The notes beneath the pieces are model-generated. The model did not search any database. It was not told where the DNA came from and worked only from the letters and a program-made list of their open reading frames with translations. Shown here in pieces: positions 2,979 to 5,750 of a stretch of DNA of 64,000 nt (the first letter of the stretch is position 1; each line of letters starts with the position of its first letter). Source of the DNA: Clostridia bacterium (GTDB lineage: Bacteria; Bacillota; Clostridia; TANB77; CAG-465); contig JAGAIU010000078.1 of NCBI GenBank assembly GCA_017626395.1, positions 124,001 to 188,000 of the forward strand, read 5' to 3'. The position numbers and the translations under genes are program-made.

Positions 2979-3005
2979 AAGATAGCTATAAGCTATCTTT
3001 TTTTA
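2979..3005 (+). terminator. Intrinsic terminator after ferredoxin
   Basis: AAGATAGCT (2979-2987), loop ATA, AGCTATCTT (2991-2999), then a T-run to 3005. It ends the lepB-ferredoxin transcription unit. Confidence 0.9.
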
Positions 3006-3028: not shown

Positions 3029-3343
3029 ATGAAGTATAAAGTATATTGGAAAGAAATAAAATTTTTAGAAATAGAAAAAATAAATGATATGTATCATTCT
3101 GAAATAATTACTGAAAATGTAGATAAAGTAGCTGAACTCGGATATCCAAAGACTTTTATTAATGATATAAAAGAAGTAGATAAAGAATTACCTAAAATAG
3201 TTAGTAATAGATTGCCAGATGTAAATTATCTTAATGAAAAAGGATATGATACAAAAGATATTGAAAAAGCTATAGGCAAATATATAAATGATACAAAATG
3301 TAGAAGAATAACAGATTATATAAGTATAGAAGTAGAGGAATAA
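3029..3343 (+). CDS. Small protein resembling the HipA N-terminal subdomain
   Basis: A 104-residue protein with no confident family name. It shares a pattern with the products at 3680-3949 and 5103-5435: a short beta-rich start, an N-V-x-K-V-x-x-x-G-Y-P-type segment (residues about 30-43), ELPKIVSNRLPD, and an ending CRRITDYISI. The Gly-x-Pro ... LP-x-I/F ... RLP layout recalls the HipA N-terminal subdomain (Couple_hipA), which in split HipBST systems is the separate protein HipS. That match is from memory of the family pattern, not a search. The paralogy with 5103-5435 is visible directly. A likely Shine-Dalgarno (GAGGT) precedes the ATG. Confidence 0.6.
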   Translation: MKYKVYWKEIKFLEIEKINDMYHSEIITENVDKVAELGYPKTFINDIKEVDKELPKIVSNRLPDVNYLNEKGYDTKDIEKAIGKYINDTKCRRITDYISIEVEE

Positions 3344-3389
3344 TCCTCTACTTTTTTGTATTTAAAATAAGGATTAAAGTAATGATAAT

Positions 3390-3418
3390 TTGACATAAAA
3401 CACAGAAAATAGTATAAT
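3390..3418 (+). promoter_or_regulatory. Sigma-A promoter before the small membrane protein
   Basis: Perfect TTGACA (3390-3395), 17-base spacer, TATAAT (3413-3418). Confidence 0.85.
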
Positions 3419-3479
3419 ATAAGTATGAAAATTGTTTTTAAATTATTGAAAAAATTTTCGATAGGAAAGAGGAATTTGA

Positions 3480-3629
3480 ATGAAAGAAAAAATAAAATAT
3501 GGATTTGCTTGTGCAGCTTTATTAGTTGTTTGGATAGGATTAGAAATCTGGGGACTTATCTTAGATTATAATTTCTATTCAGATATAATAGAATGCATAA
3601 AGATGTTCATAGAATCTTTAGCAAGATAA
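3480..3629 (+). CDS. 49-residue membrane microprotein
   Basis: A short gene reading MKEKIKYGFACAAL onward, 49 residues, with one hydrophobic segment at about residues 8-29 (GFACAALLVVWIGLEIWGL) and an amphipathic tail ending in ESLAR. A GAAAGAGGAA Shine-Dalgarno precedes the ATG, a consensus promoter lies 62 bases upstream and a terminator overlaps the stop, so it has its own transcript. Function is unknown. It sits inside the HipA-like gene group but shares no motif with those proteins. Confidence 0.65.
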   Translation: MKEKIKYGFACAALLVVWIGLEIWGLILDYNFYSDIIECIKMFIESLAR

Positions 3630-3651
3630 TCACGAATGTGATTATTTTTCT
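3626..3651 (+). terminator. Intrinsic terminator
   Basis: ATAATCAC (3626-3633), loop GAAT, GTGATTAT (3638-3645), then T-rich. The stem overlaps the stop codon of the microprotein gene. Confidence 0.8.
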
Positions 3652-3679
3652 CTTAAATTAATATTAAAGGGAGGTAGTT

Positions 3680-3949
3680 ATGATGAAAAGGCTTATTTAT
3701 TTGGTAGATTGGAAAGATTACATAGTAGGTCGTGTTTATACTAATGAAAAAGAAGAATACATCTATGAACCAGATTTGGAAAATTGTAGATTGGCTTGTC
3801 GTGAAGGAATGCCTGCATTATTTGTAATGAGACCACAAAGAGAATGGAGTAAAGTATTACCACCATTTATTGCTAGTAGACTAAAAATAAATTCGCAATA
3901 TGACCATAAATTAGTTACAGATTATTTTTCAATAATCGAGCGAAAATAG
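3680..3949 (+). CDS. Small protein resembling the HipA N-terminal subdomain
   Basis: 89 residues, the closest of the three paralogues to HipA N-terminal subdomain style: VDWKDYIVGRVY, then YIYEPDLENCRLACREGMP, then LPPFIASRL (about 62-70), ending TDYFSIIERK. The GMP ... LPPFI ... SRL order parallels the G-x-P ... LP-x-I ... RL order of the proteins at 3029 and 5103. GGGAGGT precedes the first ATG; a second ATG follows immediately and either may be used. Role unknown; by analogy with HipS it could be a regulator of the kinase-like protein encoded downstream. Confidence 0.6.
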   Translation: MMKRLIYLVDWKDYIVGRVYTNEKEEYIYEPDLENCRLACREGMPALFVMRPQREWSKVLPPFIASRLKINSQYDHKLVTDYFSIIERK

Positions 3950-3972
3950 GAGTACTAAGTACTTCTTTTTTT
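3949..3972 (+). terminator. Intrinsic terminator
   Basis: GGAGTACT (3949-3956) pairs with AGTACTTC (3958-3965, one G-U), followed by seven T. It overlaps the stop codon. Confidence 0.75.
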
Positions 3973-4080
3973 GTTGCAAAAATTCTAAAAAAGTAATCGC
4001 AAAAACTGCTAGAAAAATAGGTACTTTTTTATTACCCTGTTTTCTCAAATCTATGTTATATATATAAGCGGGGTGATTAA

Positions 4081-5100
4081 ATGAAAGAAAATATTGAAGA
4101 TTATAGAAAAAATGGTTACATCAATTTAGATGAATACTTAATTAATAATCCAGAAGGATTTACATATCCATATTATATTGATGGATATGATGAAAAGAAT
4201 TTTTGGACTAAAGTTGCAAGTAAAGATAAAGAAAAGTTTATCTACGTTAAGCCAAGAGAAAAAGATTATTTAAATAACGAATATAACGTCTATTCAGAGC
4301 TTTTATATGAAGAACTAATGAAACAAGTCGGGATAAAGAATGTAAGTTTTGATATGGCCCAATATGACGGTTCTATGGCTACTATATCTGAAAATATGTT
4401 AAATGAATATAGTAATAACCAATTTATTATTAATGGTTCTGAACTTTTAGCAAGTAAAACTTATAGAACCGAAGATGAGTATAATATAGAAGATTTATTT
4501 GATTCTATACATGAATATTGCAATGCTGAATATTTAGAAGAAGATGTAGAAGAAAAATGTATAAGTGATATACAAAAAGTATGTATAGCAGATATATTTT
4601 TACTTTCTACTGACCGAAAAGCAACAGATTTTGATTTTATAGCTGGAATAGATAAAAAAGATGAAGAAGATTTAGTGTTAGCACCACTTTGTCATAATAC
4701 TTATGCTTTAGGATCAAATTTCAGTAAAGATGAAATAATAGAAATGTTAGATGACTATGATATGATGTCAGAAAGAATAAATCTTTGCTATTTTGATGCA
4801 GGTATTCCAGAATATAAAAGAGATTATGATTATCCTTATTGGGAAGATTCATTATATTACTTTGTGGATGAAGATGAAAAAAATCTAGATTTTGCTGAAG
4901 AATGTGCAAAGAAATTAAACATAGATGATGCTATAACAAAAGTTGAAAGAAGAATAAATACTAAAATTCCAGAAGAATATAAAGAATTTGTAAGAACTGC
5001 TTTTGATACTAGACTTAGAAATATATGTCAGAGCTTAAATTTAGATTATTACAAAATAATGGATAATAAATATTATGAATATGAAATGGAGGAAATATAG
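4081..5100 (+). CDS. Degenerate HipA/HipT-like kinase
   Basis: 339 residues resembling the kinase core of HipA/CtkA proteins. The N-lobe lysine strand is FIYVKPRE (K57), followed by NEYNVYSELLYEELMKQVGI and SENML, as in CtkA-type kinases. The catalytic-loop region reads STDRKATDFDF (D178 in TDRK) where E. coli HipA has TDGHAKNFSI, and the metal-binding Asp motif reads LAPLCHNTYALG (H205 where HipA has D). The loop Asn is Asp and the metal-ligand Asp is His, so I infer a pseudokinase or altered metal use. Its N-terminus lacks a HipA N-subdomain 1, as in HipT. The HipS-like gene 5103-5435 follows after 2 bases. Confidence 0.6.
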   Translation: MKENIEDYRKNGYINLDEYLINNPEGFTYPYYIDGYDEKNFWTKVASKDKEKFIYVKPREKDYLNNEYNVYSELLYEELMKQVGIKNVSFDMAQYDGSMATISENMLNEYSNNQFIINGSELLASKTYRTEDEYNIEDLFDSIHEYCNAEYLEEDVEEKCISDIQKVCIADIFLLSTDRKATDFDFIAGIDKKDEEDLVLAPLCHNTYALGSNFSKDEIIEMLDDYDMMSERINLCYFDAGIPEYKRDYDYPYWEDSLYYFVDEDEKNLDFAEECAKKLNIDDAITKVERRINTKIPEEYKEFVRTAFDTRLRNICQSLNLDYYKIMDNKYYEYEMEEI

Positions 5101-5102
5101 AT

Positions 5103-5435
5103 ATGGTAATTGAACTGTTATGGGATAATGTAAAAGTTTTAACCATAGAAAAAATGGAAAATTTCTACGTATCAAATGTTTGTAGAGAGAATATAGAAAT
5201 TGCAAGAAGTACTGGCTTTCCAATATTTTTTCTAAAACAGCTAACTGTAATATCAGAAGAACTACCTGCTATTGTAAAACAAAGATTATCTAATGTTAAC
5301 AATATGAAAGGAAAATTAAAGTTTAAAAATGATTATAGCAGTGAAGAATTAGAAGATAATATATACGAATATATTAATCAAACTGAATGTAGAAGACCTA
5401 CAGATAAATTTAGTATAAAGATAGAAATTAAATAA
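5103..5435 (+). CDS. Small HipA N-subdomain-like (HipS-like) protein
   Basis: 110 residues, paralogous to the product of 3029-3343: ENIEIARSTGFPIFFL against ENVDKVAELGYPKTFI, EELPAIVKQRL against KELPKIVSNRL, and ECRRPTDKFSI against KCRRITDYISI. It begins 2 bases after the kinase-like gene, with GGAGG inside the end of that gene, so the pair is translationally coupled. In split HipBST systems the HipS subunit neutralises HipT, which makes an inhibitor role plausible. No HTH (HipB) gene is nearby, so equivalence is inference only. Confidence 0.6.
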   Translation: MVIELLWDNVKVLTIEKMENFYVSNVCRENIEIARSTGFPIFFLKQLTVISEELPAIVKQRLSNVNNMKGKLKFKNDYSSEELEDNIYEYINQTECRRPTDKFSIKIEIK

Positions 5436-5478: not shown

Positions 5479-5750
5479 ATATTTGAATTAAAAGCAATGA
5501 ACAAGAGGAGTAGAATAGAGGTTATCTGTAGAGAGAAAGACTCAGCGGCTGAAAGGTCTTTTAGAAAAACATATTTGAAGGTAGCTTGGGAGCTGGTATA
5601 CTGAAGTGTGAGCATGTGTAAGTATACTCCGGAACAGTCGGTAAATCTGTAAGTAAGTGCATACAGTAATAAGTATTGTATGAATTAAGGTGGTACCGCG
5701 AATCACAGTCATTCGTCCTTAAATAATTAAGGATTAATGACTGTTTTTTT
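5479..5750 (+). promoter_or_regulatory. Valine T-box riboswitch leader
   Basis: The T-box sequence AAGGTGGTACCGCG is at 5687-5700 and is followed by the competing terminator ACAGTCATT (5705-5713) / AATGACTGT (5736-5744) with a T-run. The Stem I specifier loop, by alignment to the GAA-x-codon-purine pattern of glyQS leaders, reads GAAG-GTA-G with the specifier GTA (Val) at 5581-5583. Uncharged tRNA-Val is expected to pair with GTA and with the T-box, favouring the antiterminator and expression of the two genes downstream. The specifier fits valS as the second of them. Confidence 0.92.

Follow-up and report, generated by a model that had tools for sequence, protein, structure and literature searches.

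The locus at positions 3029–5435 of the window (the whole stretch of 64,000 nt analysed, positions 124,001 to 188,000 of contig JAGAIU010000078.1 in the 1.99-Mb draft genome GCA_017626395.1) is probably what remains of two tandem kinase-HipS units of the hipJS or PDC-M03 type. One of these would have lost its kinase gene, kin1, leaving the HipS-like genes HS_A1 and HS_B as orphans, and the other, kin2-HS_A2, has become fixed in the clade and probably forms a HipS-capped, non-catalytic module. The four ORFs of the initial annotation were recovered at the same coordinates, each with a plausible ribosome-binding site, and the locus was bordered by ricT and a ferredoxin gene upstream and by a T-box leader, then a small ORF and valS, downstream. 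The following features were found:

Terminator-like hairpin, 2979..2999, + strand: between the ferredoxin gene and HS_A1, with the HS_A1 start 30 bp on
HS_A1, 3029..3343, + strand: HipS-like protein of 104 aa, putative orphan of a lost kin1 unit; in the A1 clade (98/92)
Terminator-like hairpin, 3328..3355, + strand: at the HS_A1 end
HS_B, 3680..3949 (alternative start 3683), + strand: second, shorter HipS-like protein of 89 aa; in clade B (7 rows, 97/94)
Terminator-like hairpin, 3948..3966, + strand: 3′ of HS_B
kin2, 4081..5100, + strand: HipA/CtkA-fold protein of 339 aa, predicted pseudokinase; lineage support 100/100
D178 codon, 4612..4614, + strand: equivalent of the catalytic Asp, kept in the window
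D183-F184-D185 codons, 4627..4635, + strand: loop Asn replaced by Asp at 183 and an Asp gained at 185
H205 codon, 4693..4695, + strand: position of the Mg-binding Asp (YDN motif) in relatives
HS_A2, 5103..5435, + strand: HipS-like protein of 110 aa, partner of kin2, starting 2 bp after it; in the A2 group (92/91)
T-box leader, 5488..5723, + strand: RF00230 (123 bits, E 1.7e-27), preceding the small ORF and valS

Four terminator-like hairpins were found, against 0.6 expected (both strands). The region from the ferredoxin gene to the T-box contained no apparent HTH-type ORF, in agreement with the initial annotation, which had recorded the lack of a HipB gene, and the only other gene-sized ORF on the + strand of this region was one of 49 aa (3480–3629). 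This hydrophobic ORF lies between HS_A1 and HS_B, has a perfect consensus sigma-70 promoter upstream (TTGACA-17-TATAAT at 3390–3418) and showed no significant homologue in the collected loci.

The three small proteins had been described as HipS-like paralogues, and both parts of this description were borne out. The 3029 and 5103 proteins are clearly paralogous (37% identity across 110 aligned columns, E 5e-23), and the 3680 protein was more distant from the other two (pairwise BLASTP E 5e-4 to 2e-3); an iterated profile seeded with the three proteins scored the 3680 protein at E 8.9e-24 and recovered 49 more small ORFs in relatives. The AlphaFold2 model of the 5103 protein (mean pLDDT 89.7) had HipS of E. 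coli and Legionella as its best PDB matches (VIA-align Z 6.7–7.1 over 95–96 residues), with the HipA N-subdomain ranking after HipS and the first unrelated chain at Z 2.5; the Foldseek E-values were weak (0.025). Searched against PDB sequences, the small-protein profile found no convincing relative, and the HipS assignment therefore rests on the fold, which was modelled for the 5103 protein, the 3029 and 3680 proteins being tied to it by profile. A separate protein of about 100 aa with the HipS/N-subdomain fold is thus present. Each of the three window proteins fell within its own HipS group, and the A2 type was found once per kin2 gene. Trp65 of E. coli HipS is not conserved across all HipS (PMC10627512).

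For the 339-aa protein, earlier read as a HipA/CtkA kinase core without the N-subdomain, the model (mean pLDDT 85.4) gave the same picture. It matched CtkA (Z 23.8, 279 residues aligned), HipA (Z 17.7) and HipT (Z 17.5), which places it within the HipA/HipT/CtkA superfamily fold, and it contained no N-subdomain; an unrelated fold was seen neither for this protein nor for the 5103 protein. By sequence, the kinase profile found CtkA (E 5.8e-9) and Legionella HipT, and the PADLOC model PDC-M03A matched the window kinase with E 1.6e-15. HipA_C was detected in 20 of 31 family members, the window protein not being among these. Run on their own against Pfam, NCBIfam and PHROGs, the window proteins yielded no confident family; their assignment came solely from PADLOC M03A, the profiles and the fold comparisons. 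Besides, a match to SMI1/KNR4 at the kinase C-terminus (E 0.007, below the cut-off) was discounted, that region being spanned by the CtkA and HipA structures.

The kin2 lineage was found to be monophyletic (100/100), with a long stem (1.56 changes per site) and mostly short tips, and three residues are replaced in all 14 of its proteins: the Mg-binding Asp (by His or Ser), the loop Asn (by Asp) and the loop His. Residues were counted in 13 aligned kin2 rows and in 26 other kinases, the fourteenth kin2 protein (G006) being read from a contig end. Column 205, aligned by the profile with the Asp that binds Mg in CtkA and HipT, contained His in 12 and Ser in one of the 13 kin2 rows and His in G006, compared to Asp in 25 of the 26 other kinases. 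At position 183, Asp was present in all 13 rows and G006, and Asn in 26/26 of the others; at position 185 the same 13 rows and G006 showed Asp, where other kinases have S, G or A. The His at position 180 was absent from every kin2 protein (13 aligned and G006) and present in 25/26 of the others. The catalytic D178 was kept in 10 of the 13 rows and lost from three (Ala in L049, Asn in L050 and L051), and Lys57 was kept in all kin2 proteins. The residues of an active HipA-family kinase (DRHxxN ... YD) are thus incomplete in the window protein, which keeps D178 and shows Asp for N183 and His for D205.

Loss of the Mg-binding Asp of a kinase usually abolishes Mg-ATP phosphotransfer. Since kin2 has kept the fold and not the canonical active site, it probably transfers no phosphate in the usual way, and the replacement of Mg-binding and catalytic-loop residues across the whole lineage speaks against a working kinase toxin at 4081–5100. 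D183 and D185 are invariant and may form a different metal site, so that the term pseudokinase is to be read as a prediction. The most likely reading of kin2 is a domesticated pseudokinase bound by HipS, or else a kinase with a rebuilt metal site, and not the active toxin of a split HipA system.

A kinase of this family was found in 28 of the 191 genomes searched. kin2 was present in 14/14 genomes with a RicT at least 80% identical to that of the window genome (14 species, one clade) and in 0/14 genus members with a RicT identity of at most 65%. Wherever the contig permitted a check, it was located downstream of the ferredoxin gene, either alone or behind kin1 and the HipS genes of kin1. The kin2 frame was open in 13 of the 14 genomes, the draft genome G020 having one stop, and the closest pairs showed dN/dS values of 0.08 (L044/L047) and 0.12 (L050/L051); two close pairs of A2 genes showed 0.09 and 0.13. 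Most other pairwise dS values were saturated, and a tree-wide omega of 0.02–0.03 was set aside because the trees were saturated. The possibility that kin2 is a decaying pseudogene was rejected in view of the open frames together with the close-pair dN/dS of about 0.1. Given its universal presence at one site, the open frames and the low dN/dS, kin2-HS_A2 is therefore a vertically inherited core gene pair of the clade, unlike toxin-antitoxin systems, which are typically patchy. The kin2 lineage could stem from an acquired copy rather than from a duplication. In other loci, PADLOC and Pfam showed neighbouring defence-like genes (AbiD, AbiQ/ToxN) mixed with housekeeping genes, and the defence-island context is thus not decisive.

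Judging from fold and gene order, HS_A2 most likely behaves towards kin2 as HipS does towards HipT and caps the kin2 N-lobe in trans; together the two would form a regulator or binding module that is non-catalytic and possibly responds to nucleotides. More specifically, and more tentatively, a toxin-antitoxin kinase may have been domesticated, so that a core gene of the whole clade, fixed at one chromosomal site, would now encode a pseudokinase capped by HipS, in which D183-x-D185 and H205 would make up a rebuilt metal or nucleotide site and whose role would be regulatory and non-toxic. The retention of kin2 with its partner in every close relative, in spite of the lost catalytic residues, suggests a toxin system turned housekeeping regulator. 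It is unlikely that kin2 is instead an active toxin kinase in which D183 and D185 replace the lost Asp, with HS_A2 as the antitoxin of a functional hipJS-type pair. Such a pair would agree with the invariance of both Asp residues in kin2 and their absence from other members, with the invariant Lys57 and the D178 of 10/13 rows, and with the tight coupling of kin2 to its HipS gene (mostly 0–2 bp spacing or a short overlap), but the three kin2 proteins without the catalytic Asp still keep D183 and D185, so that the conserved feature would not be phosphotransfer by the usual route. Moreover, all other aligned homologues except L065 keep the D/N/D residues, and the patchy inheritance of toxin-antitoxin systems contrasts with the vertical retention of kin2 in the whole clade at one site.

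The origin of HS_A1 and HS_B is indicated by the gene order in relatives. A HipS-like gene was found downstream of 40/40 kinase ORFs in the collected loci, most within 100 bp, and none of these 40 family kinases lacked HipS. In the genus, the unit consists of a kinase gene followed by HipS-A and often then by a shorter HipS-B, and two kinase lineages were present, kin1, with intact catalytic residues, and the kin2 of the window. Both were found in a tandem array in G003, G005, G014, G020, and G025, with kin1 first, HipS A1 directly after it, and kin2 with A2 last; in four of these five the array was flanked by the ferredoxin gene on one side and by valS or neighbours of valS on the other, the G020 contig beginning inside kin1. 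kin1 was also located directly upstream of HS_A1 in G004 and G010, there away from the ferredoxin-valS site, and members of the A1 clade directly downstream of an intact-motif kin1 were found in L039, L040, L044, L046, L047, L059, and L060. The HS_B type in relatives follows kin1-HS_A1 or a single intact kinase unit, and in G011 and G008 the ferredoxin-valS site was occupied by one intact unit that includes both an A and a B HipS gene. The window showed the order A1, B, kin2, A2 without kin1; no kin1 fragment was seen in the window, and the distance from the ferredoxin gene to A1 was about 55 bp, hairpin included. kin2-only loci mostly contained a single HipS gene.

With kin1 gone here and present in relatives, the 3029 and 3680 genes would be orphan antitoxin-like genes, and these gene orders are most easily explained if HS_A1 and HS_B are remnants of a second unit that has lost its kinase. 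The initial annotation was right that these genes stand alone with terminator-like hairpins and that the kinase is coupled to a HipS gene; its assignment of the two to a single system as extra HipS genes does not agree with the relatives, which place them in the kin1 unit. It had missed both this probable origin and the absence of canonical catalytic residues from kin2.

Kinase-less HipS-like genes were found at the window site and in L089–L093. L091 and L092 contained HipS only, at a site where L061, L063, L064, L067, L068, and L071 have a kinase plus HipS; their flanking genes correspond to those of the kinase-bearing loci (BLASTP), and at most about 50 bp were left at the position of the kinase. 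This polarity of loss would be expected with HipS as the antidote to a toxic kinase, the counts being small and the orphans coming from one genus. Thus, the repeated survival of HipS without a kinase offers comparative support for HipS as the antidote in units without HipB.

As leftovers, HS_A1 and HS_B may still be useful as antidotes. A broader role, in which HS_A1, HS_B and the pseudokinase would form an immunity or anti-addiction store that neutralises or buffers related active kinases, either incoming or encoded elsewhere, appears rather improbable. The repeated persistence of HipS-like genes without a kinase (L091 and L092 compared to six kinase-bearing genomes) is consistent with it, and so is the presence of another family kinase, with D/N/D intact where the motifs were readable, in 13 of the 14 kin2 genomes, but kin2 is the only kinase of the family in the window genome, which otherwise has just a CtkA-like one, and the search for recent transfer gave no phage match and one weak plasmid match. 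The orphans may also just be decaying, no promoter-like site having been found between the 2979–2999 hairpin and HS_A1. The CtkA-like protein of the source genome, which contains HipA_C, is encoded at L094 4258–5100 (contig C4); its DRHGGN and APIYD motifs are intact, and no HipS-like gene was detected next to it.

That the locus represents a new split HipA system, with one active kinase controlled by three HipS proteins, is hardly credible. The folds and the gene order fit, but the kinase is degenerate, the relatives place HS_A1 and HS_B in a unit other than that of kin2, only one HipS gene is present in most kin2-only loci, and kinase-HipS units without HipB have already been described (PMC8262856).

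The order of kinase and HipS without HipB, put forward in the initial annotation as a new arrangement, corresponds to the published hipJS (Gerdes et al., 2021, PMC8262856) and resembles the PADLOC candidate pair PDC-M03A/B. As in hipJS, the window pair (4081–5100 and 5103–5435) comprises a short HipA-family kinase without N-subdomain-1 and a downstream HipS-like protein, with no HipB. In contrast, HipJ is described as having its four core kinase motifs intact (PMC8262856), and kin2 lacks the Mg-binding and catalytic-loop residues; kin1 and nearly all other homologues do contain the D/N/D part of these motifs. PDC-M03 is a candidate phage defence pair of PADLOC-DB 2.0.0, a catalogue entry for which no tested function was found. 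Its M03A models matched 31/31 kinases tested and its M03B models a few of the small proteins in relatives (E down to 7.9e-5), whereas the small proteins of the window matched no M03B model and the window kinase has a degenerate active site.

HipBST of E. coli O127 and Legionella pneumophila similarly has a separate HipS-fold protein and a HipT-like kinase without the N-subdomain, with a structure-based sequence identity to the window proteins of about 9–13%. It differs from the window in its upstream HTH protein HipB, in its order B-S-T, the window HipS being downstream of the kinase, and in its active site, which is degenerate in kin2. CtkA of Helicobacter pylori is the closest solved fold to kin2 but keeps the DRHxxN and APxFD residues, both of which kin2 has lost. 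hipIN modules combine a kinase with a HipS-HIRAN protein (PMC8262856) and so share the order of a kinase followed by a HipS-like domain. Similar pairs, likened to hipIN by layout, were found in other Clostridia (L101–L103), where the partner of about 230–250 aa has a C-terminal extension absent from the window proteins and the kinase motifs are intact.

Pseudokinases are well known in eukaryotes, but in the literature searched none was found described for the HipA/HipT toxin family. As far as this literature shows, the novelty lies in a clade-wide degenerate kinase kept with its HipS, and not in the kinase-HipS arrangement itself. A fixed vertical pair in 14 species, with intact paralogues in some of the same genomes, provides a natural comparison that bears on how a kinase toxin and its antitoxin lose toxicity and yet stay under selection.

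Some further observations were made on individual loci. Another kinase-HipS pair with lost motif residues (NSNRDSTN, YANG) was found at L065 4163–5487 (G009); it possibly represents an independent degeneration, its position in the tree being unsure, on a very long branch. At L049 6107–7440 (G004), where the catalytic Asp of kin2 is replaced by Ala, the HipS partner was by far the most divergent A2 protein (branch 2.37), which gives the impression of a joint drift of the two. A thioredoxin-like gene, absent from the window locus, was located directly 3′ of kin2-HipS in L040 (2696–3043), L044 (3624–3971), L046 (2973–3320), L047 (5237–5584), and L074 (468–821).
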